In this document: positions 98-19,502 of the stretch, one piece after another | Layout of the letters: each line of letters begins with the position of its first letter | Position numbering within the stretch: position 1 is the stretch's first letter | Origin: a virus | DNA: 20,010 bases | IMG/VR virus record: IMGVR_UViG_3300005264_000112 | Span: 1 to 20,010 of that record | Reading direction: 5' to 3' (one strand) | Position numbers and translations under genes: made by a program | Notes under the pieces: model-generated | Told to the model about the DNA's origin: nothing | Database searches by the model: none | What the model saw: only the letters and a program-made list of their open reading frames with translations

Positions 98-1039
98 ATG
101 AGTGAAACACAAAAAGAACAACCTAACTACTATGCTATATTAACAGCTGATGTAAGATATTCAAAAGAGTTAAATTTCTTTGAAAAAGTCTTATATGCTG
201 ATATAACAGCACTTACTAATAAAAATGGCTATTGTACTGCTTCAAATGGCTATTTTGCTGAAGTATTTGGCAAAGCAAAAGAAACAATATCACGAGCTAT
301 ATCAAAATTTGAAAAACTTGGCTTTTTAAAAGTCGTAATTACACGAGATAATGCAACAAAACAAATCATAGATAGAAAACTTTACCTATTGACAAAAATA
401 TCAATACCTATTAACGAAAACATCAATACCCCTATTGATGAAAATGTCAATACCCCTATTGATGAAAACATCAATACCCCTATTGATGAAAACATCAAAG
501 AGAATAATATAAATATTAATACTACAAGTAATAATAAAAAAAATAAACAAAAAAAATCACAAACTGAAATTTTACCACCTGAATTAAATATTGAAGCTTT
601 TGAAATGTGGATTGAGTACAAAGGTAAAAGCTATTCAAAACAAGGTAGAACACTAACTATAAATAAACTTATCAAATACCCTAAAGATGTTCAGCTACAG
701 ATGGTTGAAAATAGCATTATGAATAATTACAAAGGATTATTTGAAATAAAGCCACAAGGTAATCAAGTAGCACAATACCAGCAACAAAAACAAACTATAA
801 ACCCTTTTGAACTATATACAAACTATAGAAATAAAGGAATGGATAAAGAAGTAGCAACTGTAAGGGTTATTACTGAAACTGGTATGAAATACCCAGCTAC
901 AGATGACTTTAAAAAAGCTATTAATAATGCTGAATTTGCTTTGTATATGCAGCAAAGAGAACAACAACAAACACAATCACCAGCAAGTGATGAATATTAT
1001 CAAGAAAAATTACTAAAGGAACTTTACGATGAAAACTAG
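98..1039 (+). CDS. Phage replication initiator / replisome organizer (lambda O-like, HTH)
   Basis: This 313-residue protein probably binds the phage origin and recruits the helicase loader. Residues about 10-100 form a winged helix-turn-helix of the HTH_36 type found in phage replication proteins (recognition-helix region near FGKAKETISRAISKFEKLGF). Residues about 101-132 are four 8-residue repeats of the form INTPIDEN, followed by an Asn/Lys-rich linker. The C-terminal part (WIEYKGKSYS ... NNYKGLFE) resembles the second domain of DnaD/replisome-organizer proteins. The start is supported by GGAG at 88-91, six bases before the ATG. Its end overlaps the next gene by 11 bases. The coding repeats are also a DNA repeat array with dyad symmetry, as in lambda O. 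The family is reasonably sure; the exact subfamily is not. Confidence 0.8.
   Translation: MSETQKEQPNYYAILTADVRYSKELNFFEKVLYADITALTNKNGYCTASNGYFAEVFGKAKETISRAISKFEKLGFLKVVITRDNATKQIIDRKLYLLTKISIPINENINTPIDENVNTPIDENINTPIDENIKENNININTTSNNKKNKQKKSQTEILPPELNIEAFEMWIEYKGKSYSKQGRTLTINKLIKYPKDVQLQMVENSIMNNYKGLFEIKPQGNQVAQYQQQKQTINPFELYTNYRNKGMDKEVATVRVITETGMKYPATDDFKKAINNAEFALYMQQREQQQTQSPASDEYYQEKLLKELYDEN
398..493. repeat. Four 24-bp intragenic iterons with dyad symmetry: candidate replication origin
   Basis: Four in-frame 24-bp units run from 398 to 493; the first is degenerate. The last three carry the dyad ATCAATA-CCCC-TATTGAT, or a one-arm variant of it, at about 421-440, 445-464 and 469-488. 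An A/T-rich stretch follows at about 494-570. Dyad iterons inside an initiator gene, next to an A/T-rich segment, is the arrangement of lambda ori within gene O. Origin function is inferred. Confidence 0.6.
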
Positions 1040-1709
1040 AAGAAATGATTTTATACAAGCTATAGCTGATTTTTTAAAAATCAATTTAGAAAATAGTATC
1101 ACAAAAGAATACCTAGAAGTAGAAACTGGCTTTATAGCTGATGAATGGTATCTTGATTTTATAAATCATCTTGGAAATACTAAAGCTGATTATAAAAGAC
1201 CACTAGACCTATTTACAAGTGCAATCAATAGCTATAAAACGATTAAATTTCAAAAGTTATATGCAACAGTAGGTGAACAATCAAAAAAGCTTTTAGACAA
1301 ACTACAAGCAACTTTTAGAATATTTGATAATGGAGCTGTACCACCTGAATATTTAACTTATCAACATTTTACAGATAAAGACCCTGATACTGGTGAAAAA
1401 AAACCAACTTTTACAAAAAAACAAATAGAAGTTTTAAAAGATGTTGGAGATTGGCACTATGTTTATGGTCGTAGAAATGATATTTATAGTTTAACTGGAA
1501 TGATAGAACGAGCTTTTAAAAAAAGTGTAGAACAAAAGATAAAAGATACGAGCTTTGCACTTGGAAATGCACCACAAATAGGACACCAAGCAACAAAACT
1601 AATAAAAATGGTTGGTGATGAGCCAAAAGAGATACAGCAACATACAATTCACCCTAATATGGCTGCAATGATGGGAAATCTAACTAAAAAAGTGCGAGTG
1701 GGTGCATAG
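1029..1709 (+). CDS. Hypothetical phage protein in the position of a helicase loader
   Basis: This 226-residue soluble protein is not recognised. It is rich in Lys, Asp and aromatic residues and has no Walker A motif, signal peptide or membrane segment. Its ATG overlaps the end of the replication initiator gene by 11 bases, implying coupled translation. The position directly after an O-like initiator is that of lambda P (DnaB helicase loader), so a replication role is plausible, but no motif shows it. The stop overlaps a GTG start (TAGTG) of the methyltransferase reading frame. Confidence 0.6.
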   Translation: MKTRRNDFIQAIADFLKINLENSITKEYLEVETGFIADEWYLDFINHLGNTKADYKRPLDLFTSAINSYKTIKFQKLYATVGEQSKKLLDKLQATFRIFDNGAVPPEYLTYQHFTDKDPDTGEKKPTFTKKQIEVLKDVGDWHYVYGRRNDIYSLTGMIERAFKKSVEQKIKDTSFALGNAPQIGHQATKLIKMVGDEPKEIQQHTIHPNMAAMMGNLTKKVRVGA

Positions 1710-3150: not shown

Positions 3151-3377
3151 TGGTAACTTTAACAAAAGAGCAAGTGATAAATAAAATATTTGATATTTCA
3201 AATATGCGATTAGATGAACTTGAGGAATACGGAGTAAAAGTATCTATGAGTGATATAGATGCTAAAGCAAAACATTTTATTTATAAAGCTATTGATTGTA
3301 AAAAGCTAGAGCTAAAAGAGGTGCAAAAAGATGCCTTTGCAACAAATGGGGATATTGATGATATGGAGTTTAACTAA
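3150..3377 (+). CDS. Hypothetical small phage protein
   Basis: This 75-residue acidic protein begins MVTLTKEQVINKIFD. A GTG at 3141 in the same frame is possible, but the ATG at 3150 forms a TGATG junction with the small gene before it and is preferred. Its TAA overlaps the integrase ATG (TAATG). It looks helical. The position next to the integrase could suit an excisionase or regulator, but no HTH is evident and this is only positional. Confidence 0.55.
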   Translation: MVTLTKEQVINKIFDISNMRLDELEEYGVKVSMSDIDAKAKHFIYKAIDCKKLELKEVQKDAFATNGDIDDMEFN

Positions 3378-4441
3378 TGGTAAGTTCTAAAAGATATGGC
3401 TATAAAGTTCAGCTTAATCATCTTAAAAATGGTGATATAACCTATTACATCAGATACGATAATGAATGTAAGAAAGTGGGTCGTAAAAGTGAGGGTATAA
3501 CTGAAAAAAAGTGTATAGAACTTAGAAATCAGATACTAAGCGAACAAAGACACGGTATTGATTTGAGCCAAAAGAGTTTTAAACATCTTACTTTTAATAA
3601 ACTAGCTGAACGATATTTTGCTAGTTTGGAGGTATCAAGCCAAAAGAGATACCAACAAATGTATCAAAACCATATAGCCCCAAGCTTTGGTGATGTAGTA
3701 ATAGCAAAACTAAATGATAGTTTGATTGATGAGCTTAGAGCCTTAAAGCTTAGTGATGGGTATAGTGTGGCAACTGTAAAACAGTTTGTAAGTCTAGTAC
3801 AAAGGATAGCAAACTTTGGAATAAAAAGAGGGATAATATCATACAGCCCTTTTAGGGATATAAAGCCTTTTAAAATCAATAATACTAGACTTAGATATTT
3901 AAGTAAAGATGAAATATCTACACTTTTTGAAGATGTAAAAGATGATGTAGTTTTAAATCTATTTGTAAAGATAGCACTAGGAACTGGTGCGAGAGCTAGA
4001 AGTATATTATCACTTCAAAAAAAAGATATAAACCTTGAAAATAGAAGTATCACACTAAAGGATTTTAAACGAAATAATACTTATATAGGGTATTTAGATG
4101 ATAATACTTTTGAATTGGTGGCTGAACATATAAAGCCATTTGGTGCAAATGGTTATGTAGTTTCACTTAGTGGAGTTACTGCAAAATACCAAAATATCTA
4201 TCTATCACTAACACAAATATTTAAACAATTTAACAAAGACTTAAGCCCTGATGATAGAGCCAATAGAGTTGTAATCCATACACTAAGACACACTTTTGCA
4301 AGTCATTTAGCAATCAATGGCGTGTCAATCCAAGAGATACAAAAACTAATGAACCACAAAGATATTAAGCAAACTATGAAGTATGCAAAACTAATGCCTG
4401 ATAGTGGTAGAAAATTTATAACAGATTTATATAAGGGGTAA
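3377..4441 (+). CDS. int: Tyrosine site-specific recombinase (phage integrase)
   Basis: Integrates and excises the phage by strand exchange between attP and attB through a covalent phosphotyrosine. At 354 residues it has the usual integrase length. An N-terminal arm-binding-like region (1-60) precedes a SAM-like core-binding domain (about 65-165) and the catalytic domain (about 175-350). The conserved residues are all present: Arg206 in GTGARARS, His301 and Arg304 in HTLRHTF, His327 in LMNHKD and nucleophile Tyr336 in TMKYAKL. It starts at TAATG, coupled to the gene before. It lies inside the single-direction operon, between early genes and the packaging block, rather than at an obvious prophage end. 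No att core could be identified. Confidence 0.95.
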   Translation: MVSSKRYGYKVQLNHLKNGDITYYIRYDNECKKVGRKSEGITEKKCIELRNQILSEQRHGIDLSQKSFKHLTFNKLAERYFASLEVSSQKRYQQMYQNHIAPSFGDVVIAKLNDSLIDELRALKLSDGYSVATVKQFVSLVQRIANFGIKRGIISYSPFRDIKPFKINNTRLRYLSKDEISTLFEDVKDDVVLNLFVKIALGTGARARSILSLQKKDINLENRSITLKDFKRNNTYIGYLDDNTFELVAEHIKPFGANGYVVSLSGVTAKYQNIYLSLTQIFKQFNKDLSPDDRANRVVIHTLRHTFASHLAINGVSIQEIQKLMNHKDIKQTMKYAKLMPDSGRKFITDLYKG

Positions 4442-4444
4442 ATT

Positions 4445-4966
4445 ATGGAAATAGAAATAACTGGTTTAGATGAAGTTTTAAAAGTGCTACACCCACGAGT
4501 ATATCAAAAAGCATTAAATAGAACTGTAAATGATATTGGTGGGAAAATGAAAACCCAAACAACTAAAGAAGTGCGAAAAACATACAATGTAAAAGCTAAA
4601 GATATTAAATCTTTTATGCAAATAAAAAGGTCTAGGTATTCAGATATGAAGTACCAAATGTATATAAGAAGTAGCCCTTTAAATGCTATGAGATTTGGGG
4701 CTAAGGTTTTAAAACAAAGGGGTAAAGTAAGTGTAAGAATTAAAAAAGATAGTGGTAGAAAAGTTTTAAATAGAGCCTTTTTATCTAAGAGTGGTAAGGC
4801 TGTACTGCAAAGAGAAAAAGGAACACAAAAGATAAAGGCTGTTTCTACTGTATCAATACCCCAAATGTTTAACGATAAGATACTTAAAAAAGCTGATGAG
4901 ATGGCTAAAAAAGAGTTTGGTAAAAAGTTACAAGATAACTTTGATTTTTATATAAGAAAGGTCTAA
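4445..4966 (+). CDS. Minor tail protein Z-like (lambda gpZ family)
   Basis: This 173-residue basic protein resembles the prophage minor tail protein Z family: N-terminal GLDEVLKVLHPRVYQKALNR, then TTKEVRKTYNVKAKDI and the late FGKKLQDNFDFYIRKV. In lambda, gpZ acts at the head-proximal end of the tail during assembly. Here the gene starts three bases after the integrase stop and lies upstream of the terminase genes, away from its usual place among tail-completion genes (it would be expected near 12200). The family call is from recognised sequence character, not a search. Confidence 0.7.
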   Translation: MEIEITGLDEVLKVLHPRVYQKALNRTVNDIGGKMKTQTTKEVRKTYNVKAKDIKSFMQIKRSRYSDMKYQMYIRSSPLNAMRFGAKVLKQRGKVSVRIKKDSGRKVLNRAFLSKSGKAVLQREKGTQKIKAVSTVSIPQMFNDKILKKADEMAKKEFGKKLQDNFDFYIRKV

Positions 4967-15489: not shown

Positions 15490-15947
15490 CAGCAACCCCA
15501 AACGAAGAGGGGTTACAGATACTAAGAGATGAACTTTTTGACAGAATACAAAAGTTTAGTCTTATTGATGAAAATGATGTTGCATACTTTAGCGATAGTG
15601 TACATAGTACCTATTTTGATGAAAATGGAGTATTGACAGTAGTTGTAATCGTTCCTAAAGATGAACATTTTACAAATTGGAATAAAGCTGTAAGGGTGCT
15701 AAGTGATGATGACAAAATTATTGCTGATGTTTCTACTCCTGCAATTCAATTTGTACATGGTGTCGGCGGTGAGCAGATTATAAAAATAACAGTAAGTGGT
15801 AAAGCTGGAACAATCGCTTTTAAAGCAGATGAATACATAACACCAACGGAAGCAAAGGAGTTGTTTTTAACTCCACTTGTGGCAAATACAAATCTAAATA
15901 TCGTATTGCAAAATAAACTGATAGAAAAAGGAGTTATTGATGGCTGA
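15477..15947 (+). CDS. Hypothetical protein between gpI and the diversified tail protein
   Basis: This 156-residue protein is not assigned to a family. It has an N-terminal helix (EEGLQILRDELFDRI), a central beta-rich portion (VLTVVVIVPKDEHF, QIIKITVSGKAGTIAF) and a helical end (PTEAKELFLTPLV). Its place, coupled to gpI before and to the DGR target after by short overlaps, is where P2-like phages keep fibre genes. A role as fibre base or adaptor is plausible but only inferred. It has no signal peptide or membrane segment. Confidence 0.6.
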   Translation: MDNLTATPNEEGLQILRDELFDRIQKFSLIDENDVAYFSDSVHSTYFDENGVLTVVVIVPKDEHFTNWNKAVRVLSDDDKIIADVSTPAIQFVHGVGGEQIIKITVSGKAGTIAFKADEYITPTEAKELFLTPLVANTNLNIVLQNKLIEKGVIDG

Positions 15948-17826
15948 TTTAGCTACTGAAGTTGCAAATCTAAACATAAATGCCGCTGAACTGTTGGCAA
16001 AATATGATAGTGCTTTTGCAGCACTTGGTGAGGCTGGTGATGCTATAAAAGCAGAACTTGAAGCAATTATTGCTACAGAAAATATAAAGTCTATTGTTGT
16101 ATCTACTACAGCAATAACTGGTAATGACATTGTAGTAAATAGCTACTCAACAGATTTTACTTTAAATGCAATAGCATATCTTGATGGTGTAGATATTGCA
16201 TACTTTGAGGTTGATTGGGGCGATGATACAGCATTACAAACAGTAAATGCTACAAACAATCAAGCAATAGCTAGTCATGTGTTTGCAGATGGTGCTATTG
16301 GTGATATATATACTTTTAAAGTAACAGCAGTTGATACTTTGGGTAACAAAGGTTCACAAACTACTAAAAGTGTAACAGTAGCAGACAATCATGCACCTAC
16401 TGCACCAACAGTATCATCTGTAGCTGAAATATCTAAACTAAATACATTTGATATTGCGATGAGTGGTTCAACTGATACAGATGGTGATAGTATAATTTAC
16501 AGTTTATCTTCAAGTGTATTTACATTTAGTAAATCTACAGGCATTGCTGAAAATGAAGTTGTAACCGTAACAGCACCTGATGTAACAGATGATACTGCTT
16601 ATACATTTGAAGCTGTAGCGGTTGATAGTAAAGGTATGCAATCAACAGTTACAACTACAACAGTAACAGTCCTTGCTATTACTCATGGTGATATTGGTGT
16701 GGCTGGTGAGCGAGGTTTTGGTGTTGGTATTGCACCAACATTGCCGACTGGATTTAGTGAAATGACTGGAACTACAGATGTAAACTCTCCAAACTATGGT
16801 AATTATACAGATAGTAGTGGTTCTGTAATGGTTTATATACCAAAATGTTACTACAAGATAGATGGAAATAACATCTACTATTCATCTACACCGCAAGATG
16901 GATATCAACTTGAGAGAGCTTTTATTGATGGTGGTGTTGAGAGAGATGGTATATTTGTTGATAAATACCATTGTGGTAATGAAAATGGAGTGTTTGTATC
17001 TAAACAAGGGATTGACCCAGTATCTACAAGCTCGTCACACAATCCAATATCCGCCATAAATGGATGTACTGCTGATACTTATGAGCAAGTATTTAATGCT
17101 GTTAAATCAAGAGGCGCAGATTATGGTGTAACGCCTATATTTGTATATACAATGTTGGCAAGAATGTCAATAGCACATCAACAAGCTTCAACTGGTACTA
17201 CAAACTGTGCATGGAATGATATAGCACCGTATGCACCAAAAGGATGTAATAACAATGCTTTGGCTGATGTAAATGATACAGACCTTATTTTTACTGGTAG
17301 TGGTTATAGTAACTGTGCTTTAACTGGTAGTGCTTTGGTTCTTGCAAAAACTACTCACAATGGTCAAGACTGTGGTATAGCAGACCTAAACGGAAATATG
17401 TACGATATTCCATCTTGTTTTACAAGAAACGATGCAGATGGTTTCCTCGTTTTAAAAGAGACAGCTTCATTTAAAGATATAGATTTAACAAACTATTCTG
17501 ATAATACAATCTATGATGTGATTGATATAAGTGATGTTGTTGCTGGTAATGATGGCTGGACTTACTTTGGGAATGGAACAAATGCAGTATTTGATATGAG
17601 TGCAAGAACCAACATAGGTATTCCGTTAGCTGGTGGTGTATCTGGTACTGGAACTAGCCAGTTTGGTAATGATGGTCTATATAGATACTTAAGAGATGGT
17701 TTGGTTCCGCTTGTCGGCGGTTACTGGGGTAATGCCGCTAATGCTGGTGTGTTCTACTTGCATTTGAACACTGTTCGTTCGAGCTCGGGCACTTTTGTTG
17801 GTGGTCGTGCCTCTGTGATTTTGTAG
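15940..17826 (+). CDS. DGR-diversified tail fibre/adhesin with Ig-like domains and C-type-lectin-like C-terminus
   Basis: This 628-residue protein is the target of the retroelement and probably binds the host surface. Residues 1-55 are helical (ELLAKYDSAFAALGEAGDAI) and may trimerise or attach to the baseplate. About 60-150 resemble a PKD domain (YFEVDWGDDTALQTV, GNKGSQTTKSVTV). About 155-245 form a second cadherin/Ig-like domain (SGSTDTDGDSIIYSLSSS). About 250-628 look like the FGE/C-type-lectin fold of DGR variable proteins, with ADLNGNMYDIPSCF and a C-terminal NAANAGVFYL block. The last 41 residues are encoded by the variable repeat; changed sites are L588 (silent), Y595, G597, H608, T611, S615, G617, F619 and A624. 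The ATG at 15940 is chosen because AAAGGAG lies at 15927-15933; a TTG one codon earlier is also in frame. Confidence 0.88.
   Translation: MADLATEVANLNINAAELLAKYDSAFAALGEAGDAIKAELEAIIATENIKSIVVSTTAITGNDIVVNSYSTDFTLNAIAYLDGVDIAYFEVDWGDDTALQTVNATNNQAIASHVFADGAIGDIYTFKVTAVDTLGNKGSQTTKSVTVADNHAPTAPTVSSVAEISKLNTFDIAMSGSTDTDGDSIIYSLSSSVFTFSKSTGIAENEVVTVTAPDVTDDTAYTFEAVAVDSKGMQSTVTTTTVTVLAITHGDIGVAGERGFGVGIAPTLPTGFSEMTGTTDVNSPNYGNYTDSSGSVMVYIPKCYYKIDGNNIYYSSTPQDGYQLERAFIDGGVERDGIFVDKYHCGNENGVFVSKQGIDPVSTSSSHNPISAINGCTADTYEQVFNAVKSRGADYGVTPIFVYTMLARMSIAHQQASTGTTNCAWNDIAPYAPKGCNNNALADVNDTDLIFTGSGYSNCALTGSALVLAKTTHNGQDCGIADLNGNMYDIPSCFTRNDADGFLVLKETASFKDIDLTNYSDNTIYDVIDISDVVAGNDGWTYFGNGTNAVFDMSARTNIGIPLAGGVSGTGTSQFGNDGLYRYLRDGLVPLVGGYWGNAANAGVFYLHLNTVRSSSGTFVGGRASVIL
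17699..17812 (+). repeat. DGR variable repeat (VR)
   Basis: This stretch aligns without gaps to the template repeat at 18258-18371 (offset 559). Of 114 positions, 103 are identical and 11 differ: 17703, 17722, 17728, 17761, 17771, 17783, 17788, 17789, 17794, 17795 and 17810. All 11 are A in TR (five changed to G, three to T, three to C). The VR covers the last codons of the target gene up to residue 625. TGTTGGTGGTCGTG (17796-17809) is an A-free identical block near the 3' end and could be part of the initiation-of-mutagenic-homing site. Confidence 0.96.
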
Positions 17827-17841
17827 AGTGAGCGATAGCGA

Positions 17842-18231
17842 ATGACTAATAAAGGTGAAGTGGTACTTTATAGGAAGTATTTTGAGATGATAAAACTGTT
17901 AAATATATATCTTAATCATTTTCCAAAGCACGAGAAATATGCTTTAGCTAACAGAATAAGAGATAATGCTTATGAAGTCTATGATTTGATAGTTGAATGT
18001 CAAAAGAGGTACTACAAAAAGACCACATTAACCCAGTTAGATATTTCGCATGAAAAGCTTAGAATGCAGTTGTATCTTGCAAATGAATTAGACTACTTTA
18101 ACTATAAAGATGGTCGAAAAGGCAAGATAAACCAAAACAGATATTTAGCTATTTCACGACTTATTGATGAAATAGGCAAACTAATAGGTGCTTGGATAGC
18201 CAAGCTAAAACAAGATGGTAACTTTAAGTAA
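17842..18231 (+). CDS. avd: DGR accessory variability determinant (Avd-like four-helix protein)
   Basis: Avd proteins form a small helical pentamer that binds the DGR reverse transcriptase and its RNA and is required for mutagenic cDNA synthesis. This 129-residue, Lys-rich, Tyr-rich protein is predicted all-helical, with segments LYRKYFEMIKLLNIYLNHF, KYALANRIRDNAYEVYDLIV, LRMQLYLANELDYF and YLAISRLIDEIGKLIGAWI. These are typical of the Avd/four-helix-bundle family. It lies between the target gene (16 bases after its stop) and the TR (26 bases downstream), which is the usual DGR order. Sequence alone would leave room for a generic four-helix protein; the context makes Avd likely. Confidence 0.88.
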   Translation: MTNKGEVVLYRKYFEMIKLLNIYLNHFPKHEKYALANRIRDNAYEVYDLIVECQKRYYKKTTLTQLDISHEKLRMQLYLANELDYFNYKDGRKGKINQNRYLAISRLIDEIGKLIGAWIAKLKQDGNFK

Positions 18232-18257: not shown

Positions 18258-18371
18258 GTTTAGTTCCGCTTGTCGGCGGTAACTGGAGTAATGCCGCTAA
18301 TGCTGGTGTGTTCTACTTGAATTTGAACAATGTTCGTTCGAACTCGAACACTAATGTTGGTGGTCGTGACT
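18258..18371 (+). repeat. DGR template repeat (TR)
   Basis: Non-coding template copied with A-specific errors into the VR. It lies between avd and the RT gene, 90 bases before the RT start. It holds 23 adenines. Nine codon-aligned AAC/AAT triplets are present; these can mutate widely without creating stops, which is a DGR hallmark. An open frame of 84 codons (18215-18469) runs across it and mimics the target C-terminus, but this reflects descent from a target gene end, not a separate protein. Confidence 0.95.
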
Positions 18372-18450: not shown

Positions 18451-18464
18451 AGGAGGATTATTTG
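18451..18464 (+). promoter_or_regulatory. Strong ribosome binding site deciding the RT start
   Basis: AGGAGG (18451-18456) is five bases before a TTG at 18462 and fourteen before an ATG at 18471. The spacing favours TTG as the RT start, adding three residues. Confidence 0.6.
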
Positions 18465-19502
18465 AGTAGTATGAAAAGTGTTAGCTTTGGTATCGAAAAT
18501 CTAAACTCCTCGAAAAGAATTGGGCATTTATTTGAGAAAGCATTTACAAAAGATAATCTGTATATTGCTTATCTTGACACTATAAAAGGCAAAAGAAAAA
18601 AAGTGAAAACATTTAGATTTGAAAAAAATCTCGGTACTAATTTAGACACTCTACACAAAGAGCTACATGATGGAAGTTATGAGTTATCACCATATAACGA
18701 ATTTACTGTTTATGAGCCAAAAGAGAGAGTTATAAGAGCACCGCATTTTAGAGATTTAATTGTTCAACATGCCATTTATAGAACTATATATACCATCTTT
18801 AACAAAACCTTTGTTGATACTAGCTTTGCTTGTAGAAAAGGTGGCGGAACTCATAAGGCTAGTGTGTATATGCAGCAAGAAATGAGAAAATATGATGGTG
18901 ATATGTACTATGCAAAACTTGATATTAAAAAGTTCTTTTATTCGATAGATAGAGAGATTTTAAGAACTCTGTTTGAAAAAAAGATAAAAGATAAAAGGTT
19001 TGTTGATTTGATGATTAGATTTGCAAATATGGATGGCGACAAGGGTATCCCAATAGGAAACCTCCTGAGCCAACTATATGCACTAATTTATCTAAATGAG
19101 CTTGACCACTTTATAAAAAGAGATTTAAAAATTAAATCTTATGTGAGATATGTTGATGATTTTGTTGCCATAGGCTTAACACTTCAAGAGGCTAAGGACT
19201 TCAAAGAGAAATGTGAGAAATTCGTGCGAAATAAATTAAATCTTGAATTGAGCCATTGGACTATAGGAAAGATTAAGCGAAGCATTAACTTTGTTGGGTA
19301 TCGAACATGGCGAAGTGTAAAGTTTGTTAGAAAGCATAGTATGTATAAGTTTAGAAAAGCACTTGTTAGTGCAGATATACCATCTCTTGGTTCATGTGTC
19401 GGTCATGCAGTAGGAACTGCAACGATGAAATACTATAGAGATATGGTGCAAATGCAAAAAATTAATTTACCAAAAGGAGTAGTTAGATGTTTAAATATGT
19501 AG
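18462..19502 (+). CDS. DGR reverse transcriptase
   Basis: Copies the TR RNA into error-prone cDNA that replaces the VR. The 346 residues carry the retroelement RT order: KERVIRAPHFRDLIVQHAIY (about 87-106), RKGGGTHKA (125-133), LDIKKFFYSID (153-163) with the first catalytic Asp154, GIPIGNLLSQ (195-204) and YVDD (230-233) with the other two catalytic Asp. The IGxxxSQ form in place of the group II intron QGxxxSP is the DGR-type signature linked to misincorporation opposite adenine. It ends after a short thumb without a maturase or endonuclease domain, as expected. All catalytic residues are present, so the enzyme looks intact. The 3' end overlaps the next gene by 16 bases. Confidence 0.96.
   Translation: MSSMKSVSFGIENLNSSKRIGHLFEKAFTKDNLYIAYLDTIKGKRKKVKTFRFEKNLGTNLDTLHKELHDGSYELSPYNEFTVYEPKERVIRAPHFRDLIVQHAIYRTIYTIFNKTFVDTSFACRKGGGTHKASVYMQQEMRKYDGDMYYAKLDIKKFFYSIDREILRTLFEKKIKDKRFVDLMIRFANMDGDKGIPIGNLLSQLYALIYLNELDHFIKRDLKIKSYVRYVDDFVAIGLTLQEAKDFKEKCEKFVRNKLNLELSHWTIGKIKRSINFVGYRTWRSVKFVRKHSMYKFRKALVSADIPSLGSCVGHAVGTATMKYYRDMVQMQKINLPKGVVRCLNM

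Follow-up and report, generated by a model that had tools for sequence, protein, structure and literature searches.

A phage HTH_36 replication initiator gene that probably contains its own origin of replication

A gene for an HTH_36 replication initiator in a viral genome fragment was found to carry an array of dyad iterons followed directly by an A/T-rich element, and we read this phage gene as containing its own origin (probability about 0.88), with binding, opening, helicase delivery, and the start of replication as steps that we infer. The window, by which we mean the whole stretch of DNA analyzed, comprises 20,010 nucleotides (positions 1 to 20,010 of IMG/VR record IMGVR_UViG_3300005264_000112). 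Judged from sequence comparisons, the array and the A/T-rich element very probably form a genuine, functional replication origin; the record is a 20-kb fragment, and therefore another origin may lie elsewhere. A preliminary description of this DNA had proposed a lambda-like origin inside the initiator gene, a proposal that is well supported by the protein family, the conserved position, the synonymous constraint, the co-variation, and the adjoining A/T-rich minimum. The features are as follows, in window coordinates.

98-1039, plus strand: replication initiator gene, 313 amino acids (PF13730; PHROG 19658, 678, and 270; AF2 model)
146-388, plus strand: predicted winged-helix DNA-binding domain, residues 17 to 97 (AF2 pLDDT, winged-helix fold matches)
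278-319, plus strand: predicted recognition helix, residues 61 to 74 (AF2 helix 61-74; mutual information for E62 and R66)
387-406, unstranded: iteron 1, TATTGACAAAAATATCAATA, in a frame different from that of iterons 2 to 5
409-428, unstranded: iteron 2, TATTAACGAAAACATCAATA
433-452, unstranded: iteron 3, TATTGATGAAAATGTCAATA
457-476, unstranded: iteron 4, TATTGATGAAAACATCAATA
481-500, unstranded: iteron 5, TATTGATGAAAACATCAAAG
407-480, unstranded: inter-iteron linkers (CC at 407-408; CCCC at 429-432, 453-456, and 477-480)
494-573, unstranded: A/T-rich putative unwinding element, the lowest-GC 80-bp stretch of the whole window
505-537, plus strand: triplet element, eleven (T/A)AN triplets in a row, in a register conserved in the family
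590-1033, plus strand: predicted helical C-domain, residues 165 to 312 (AF2, low to moderate confidence; exchangeable)
1029-1709, plus strand: next gene, 226-amino-acid protein, its start overlapping the end of the initiator gene (assigned by position only)

The five dyad iterons begin at positions 387, 409, 433, 457, and 481, with spacings of 22, 24, 24, and 24 bp, and the conserved unit is a 20-bp dyad inside each repeat, TATTGAY-N6-RTCAATA. Four 24-bp iterons had been described previously; tandem dyad repeats of nearly 24 bp do lie inside the open reading frame at 98-1039, but their number is five, iteron 1 (387-406), which lies upstream of the interval then given, having been missed. Since iteron 1 is only 22 bp from iteron 2, it is in another reading frame. 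The three ATCAATA-CCCC-TATTGAT dyads of the same description are present in part, with the exact form ATCAATACCCCTATTGAT at 422 and 470 and GTCAATACCCCTATTGAT at 446, and the choice of this inter-iteron dyad as the repeat unit has to be given up, as relatives keep the dyad within the repeat while the CCCC linker varies. In nearly all relatives the linkers are all-C or all-G (CC, CCC, CCCC, GG, GGG, or GGGG). Throughout the 20-kb window, TTGAY-N6-RTCAA occurs only at 389, 435, 459, and 483, and TACCCCTA is likewise limited to 427, 451, and 475. An A/T-rich stretch had correctly been placed directly after the repeats, the 60 bp with the lowest GC content of the window being 497-556 (10% GC). The INTPIDEN repeat that the iterons were said to encode is present in the translation; since it lies within a linker predicted to be disordered, it is best explained as a mere consequence of repetition in the DNA.

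In the AF2 model, the initiator consists of an HTH_36 N-domain, a disordered linker encoded by the origin (residues 102 to 161), and a helical C-domain, with block-mean pLDDT values of about 90 to 98 for residues 21 to 100 and 86 for residues 11 to 20. PF13730 (HTH_36) was matched at the N terminus (residues 29 to 77; E = 3.6e-7; 30.3 bits versus a cut-off of 25), and PF06970 (RepA_N) was absent from the Pfam matches at E values up to 1. The top PHROGs are the replication-initiation families 19658, 678, and 270, and the HTH_36 phage initiators as a class correspond to PHROG 19658, 270, and 428; PHROG 19658 matched the initiator with an E value of 3.7e-23 and the N-domain by itself with 3.9e-20. 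A fold search with the model returned mostly generic winged helices (CRP, LexA, riboflavin kinase), which carry no family claim. The "initiator" or Rep entries 4pql, 4pt7, 5kbj, and 4pta, which we take to be RepA_N structures, were matched at Z scores of 8.3 to 9.8 and a root mean square deviation of 5 to 6 Å, level with CRP and LexA.

Dyad iterons were found at the same gene position in 126 of 130 distinct relatives, scored as positive when at least two dyad sites were joined by C- or G-only linkers, and the typical iteron spacing among relatives is 22/24/24. The relatives are mainly Firmicutes phages, with some from Campylobacterota and others. As a lone query, the window protein matched nothing among viral contigs, and an alignment query was needed; 80 viral and 80 genomic loci were taken from the alignment-based search. 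A tblastn search against phages returned 98 records, chiefly from Staphylococcus and Lactobacillus, none of which covers 80% of the query, and homology in these matches ends after the iterons. In the same results, the initiator match of PQ554527.1 (Acinetobacter phage D2SVT) equals that of an Enterococcus phage record in coverage, identity, and score, and the host of PQ554527.1 may be mislabelled or the record contaminated. Relatives were also found in Sulfurimonas and Sulfuricurvum metagenome-assembled genomes (MAGs; L096 and L156) and on a Campylobacter jejuni plasmid (L272), for which reason a Campylobacterota host is suspected for the window phage. The 42-kb C. jejuni plasmid carries the same kind of initiator and iterons at 1153-1640 of its locus and is probably a phage-plasmid.

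Origins inside initiator genes are textbook knowledge for lambda and have been thinly tested elsewhere. The lambda-type layout, dyad iterons and an adjoining A/T-rich element within the initiator gene, is present in the window: as in lambda, the origin lies in the middle of the initiator gene, and lambda likewise has dyad iterons of the same general build, around an A-tract (CCCTCAAAACGAGGG) and at spacings of 20/24/23, and an A/T-rich element downstream. The lambda origin differs in having four iterons rather than five, other arm sequences, and no C-only linker. The suggestion that the two are unrelated, so that the shared layout would be convergent or highly diverged, was too strong, as the window protein is a typical representative of a widespread family of phage initiators whose genes carry the same built-in origin. 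Pure convergence of an unrelated protein on the lambda layout, which concerns ancestry and not function, would fit the lack of a PF04492 match to the window protein at E values up to 1 (lambda O itself scores 123 bits) and the failure of hhalign to align the family with the single lambda O sequence; lambda O relatives in viral contigs are near-identical and of no use for a profile. It is nevertheless rather unlikely, as PHROG 678, 345, and 270 match the N-domains of both the window protein and lambda O at collinear positions and the initiator model matches, over 83 columns, the fold of a protein annotated as replication protein O (E = 5e-5). Common descent of the two DNA-binding domains, although remote, is likely on these comparisons, which make a bridge of weak to moderate strength. 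The initiator probably works like lambda O and stands outside the lambda O family as defined.

The closest known type of initiator is that of Staphylococcus phage 77 ORF016 (HTH_36 plus Phg_2220_C), with relatives in Fusobacterium, Lactobacillus, Leuconostoc, and Enterococcus phages. Its N-domain is homologous to that of the window protein (54% identity over 99 residues), and iterons in the same place, 22/24/24 spacing, C linkers, and the triplet element are shared, whereas in the window the C-domain is unrelated, there are five iterons with TTGAY arms, and the hosts are others. The literature places an origin inside a phage initiator gene in lambda and SPP1 and suspects one in 80alpha, whose ORF20 is essential for initiation (PMC5499656). 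SPP1 G38P and 80alpha gp20 resemble the window protein as phage replisome organizers with the origin within their gene (PMC5499656), and a putative origin is annotated within gp20 in the 80alpha record; 80alpha gp20 differs in having another HTH and another repeat. Among plasmids, the RepA_N protein of pSK41 binds four Rep boxes located centrally in rep through its winged-helix N-domain, and its ori-encoded linker is dispensable (PMC5703833); that N-domain belongs to another family (PF06970), without a match in the window protein. In pPR9, an HTH_36 N-domain and origin are joined to a pSK41 C-domain, and the rep region replicates autonomously (PMC5703833). In the hybrid Rep of pPR9 (and of pUSA03), a plasmid case likened here by description, the HTH_36 N-domain forms a single exchangeable unit with the origin, as in the window. 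An origin inside an initiator gene is therefore already known (lambda O, SPP1 G38P, pSK41 Rep, pPR9); added here are a readable specificity code, the movement of the DNA-binding domain and origin as a single module, and a (T/A)AN triplet element in the predicted unwinding region.

The triplets at 505-537 read TAA TAT AAA TAT TAA TAC TAC AAG TAA TAA TAA, and among 119 aligned sequences the common sequence 3' of the last iteron was AGAGAA-TAA-TAC-AAG-TAT-TAA-TAA-TAC-AAG. Codon entropy in the A/T-rich element, calculated from 50 nonredundant sequences, was highest at position 2 (1.38 bits, versus 0.73 and 0.91 at positions 1 and 3), whereas the pattern was reversed in the winged-helix domain (0.72 at position 2 and 1.54 at position 3). 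The mean longest run of (T/A)AN was 7.8 in this register versus 2.7 and 1.8 in the others, and asparagine codons were AAT rather than AAC at 211:8 in the A/T-rich element versus 728:284 elsewhere. From the entropy pattern, the (T/A)AN runs, and the codon bias together, base identity and not only A/T content is under selection in the element. A strand-assigned TnnT element of the DnaD type was also considered and was rejected (4.9 on the top versus 11.2 on the bottom strand per 36 nucleotides). In Staphylococcus phage initiator genes, a short inverted repeat of the TGTCGGGCAACCCGACA type, which the window does not have, occurs soon after the A/T-rich element (L003 at about 2890-2910, L005, L007, L008, and L177 at about 4885-4902; also 80alpha).

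Repeated 3-nucleotide single-stranded DNA signals beside binding boxes have been described in oriC as the DnaA-trios and the DnaD TnnT element (PMC8287927, PMC10201434). A tentative and rather improbable reading is that the A/T-rich element is more than readily melting DNA and consists of sequence-specific (T/A)AN triplets, in a fixed register from the last iteron and conserved in phages from several phyla, that may be read as single-stranded DNA by the initiator or by a DnaD- or DnaA-like host primosome protein. That host DnaA or DnaD, and not the phage protein, reads the element as a mimic of a DnaA-trio or DnaD recognition element is a still less probable reading; it concerns a single step and does not conflict with the role that we propose for the iterons. 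The oriC signals serve as its analogue (PMC8287927, PMC10201434), and the triplets do keep to one register, but their strand polarity relative to the boxes is opposite to that of DnaA-trios, the TnnT motif is not confined to one strand, and no DnaA box was seen by eye beside the element in the window.

Evidence on what reads the iterons came from the mutual information between each N-domain residue and the iteron arm letters in 57 representatives with less than 80% identity. Of all residues in the domain, residue 62 gave the highest value for each of arm positions 4, 5, and 6 and residue 66 that for position 7, and none of 300 shuffles reached these values; at a 65% cut (35 representatives), residue 62 was first for positions 4 and 6, residue 66 for position 7, and T40 for position 5. 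Both residues 62 and 66 lie within the predicted recognition helix (61 to 74). E62 occurred with arm letters TG in 17 of 17 cases, V62 with TA in 5 of 6, and R62 with AG in 4 of 7, while C accompanied R66 in 33 of 42 and A accompanied K66 in 5 of 6. We also compared pairs that are at least 75% identical outside the helix: the arms differed in 352 of the 367 pairs that differ at residue 62 and agreed in 278 of the 299 pairs that agree there; the pair and co-variation counts are phylogenetically dependent and the percentages descriptive. As a cross-phylum anecdote, the helix RPIPTISKW is found both in a Liquorilactobacillus prophage (L133) and on the C. jejuni plasmid, and both arrays have TTMACG/CGTTAA-type half-sites. 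Because the arms co-vary with helix residues 62 and 66, it is very probable that the iterons are bound by the winged-helix N-domain.

From co-variation one learns at most that the protein reads the sites, not what the complex does, and iteron arrays often regulate their own gene too; the iterons could thus be an autoregulatory operator or a partition or incompatibility site of the HTH protein, with replication starting elsewhere. We consider this quite improbable, as the iterons are situated inside the coding sequence, some 300 bp past the start codon, no par-type gene was recognized adjacent to them, synonymous constraint runs on through the A/T-rich element (synonymous difference of 0.05 at residues 121 to 135), and pPR9 and 80alpha offer precedents for an origin.

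The array scored 27.0, a value reached by none of 2,000 base shuffles (maximum, 7.0) and none of 2,000 protein-preserving synonymous shuffles (maximum, 23.5), on a score that was devised in the present analysis after the pattern had been seen; weight is therefore put on the independent tests of synonymous constraint and reading frame. The synonymous-shuffle mean was 14.4 of 27, so the encoded repeat supplies part of the score. Among 34 genes closely related to that of phage 77, the synonymous difference over ori-coding residues 95 to 135 was 0.087, compared with 0.452 expected from matched amino acids elsewhere. It ranged from 0.3 to 0.5 for most of the gene and from 0.05 to 0.2 at residues 91 to 135, the roughly five-fold drop being confined to exactly the iterons and the A/T-rich element. 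The reading frame of the first iteron differs from that of the last in 108 of 126 genes, and where the linker flips from CCCC to GGGG in relatives, the encoded TPI becomes RGI while dyads and linkers are kept. Over the iterons and A/T-rich element, selection evidently acts on the DNA and not on the protein. That the repeats are mainly a protein feature, an INTPIDEN linker expanded by tandem duplication with the DNA repetition and dyads incidental, would agree with the contribution of the encoded repeat to the shuffled scores but can scarcely be credited, given that no synonymous shuffle reaches the score, iteron 1 is in another frame, dyads outlast amino acid changes in relatives, and a segment predicted to be disordered is under five-fold synonymous constraint.

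The DNA-binding domain and origin are inherited and exchanged as one module, because the site falls where the protein is a disordered linker. The closest relative, the metagenomic virus L016, is 85% identical over 86 N-domain residues and has identical iteron arms, while the C-domains are unrelated. Phages 77 and JK1 share the N-domain (98%) and differ in the C-domain, and phages 77 and 80alpha share the C-domain (94%) and differ in the N-domain. As a separate query, the C-domain of the window protein found no viral relative and one weak C-domain match, L261, in a genome from the order of the Sulfurimonas MAG.

In the mechanism that we propose for this built-in origin, dimers of the winged-helix N-domain would bind the five dyad iterons (387-500), about two helical turns apart, and the loaded array would strain the adjoining A/T-rich element (about 497-573) and open it. 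Delivery of the replicative helicase to the opened strand would then fall to the C-domain, acting by itself or together with the protein encoded by the next gene; recruitment of a helicase or loader by the C-domain is presumed, the next gene matching no family and the confidence of the C-domain model being low to moderate. In relatives, the slot of the next gene holds helicase loader or helicase genes. Its 226-amino-acid product had no Pfam match in the window, and because it has no similarity to the positional counterpart in the Sulfurimonas MAG, a role like that of lambda P is only a guess.

Just upstream of the initiator gene, at 1-72, a 16-bp inverted repeat (ACCCCAAATATGAGCA/TGTTCATATTTGGGGT) surrounds a second hairpin-like sequence; it may be an operator or leader structure and had no Rfam match, and Rfam and tRNA searches likewise gave no match and no tRNA for the window. 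A C-5 cytosine methyltransferase is encoded at 1709-2702, with a run of ten G residues (1790-1799) in its first conserved motif. In the sequence as given, the upstream start at 1709 does not share a frame with the remainder of the gene, which suggests slippage-driven phase variation or else a sequencing error in the homopolymer. A tyrosine integrase gene (3377-4441) lies on the same strand between the replication and head genes. Farther downstream is a complete-looking diversity-generating retroelement (17699-17812, 18258-18371, 17842-18231, and 18462-19502) that also encodes a bAvd-like accessory protein and a reverse transcriptase. Its variable repeat is at the 3' end of a gene for a 629-amino-acid protein (15937-17826) and differs from the 114-bp template repeat by 11 mismatches, all at template adenines (A to G in five, T in three, and C in three).

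For the initiator family, no paper was found in the open-access literature on the helix-iteron code or the triplet element. Nature supplies about a hundred initiator-origin pairs in this family, with a readable code (residue 62 for arm positions 4 to 6 and residue 66 for position 7), from which origin specificity, replicon compatibility, and module exchange would be predictable from sequence and testable by single substitutions. What is read in the A/T-rich element can be put to a direct test as well, owing to the strong synonymous constraint there. If our tentative reading of the triplets is true, the triplet element would be the phage counterpart of the basal unwinding system of chromosomes, concealed within a coding sequence.
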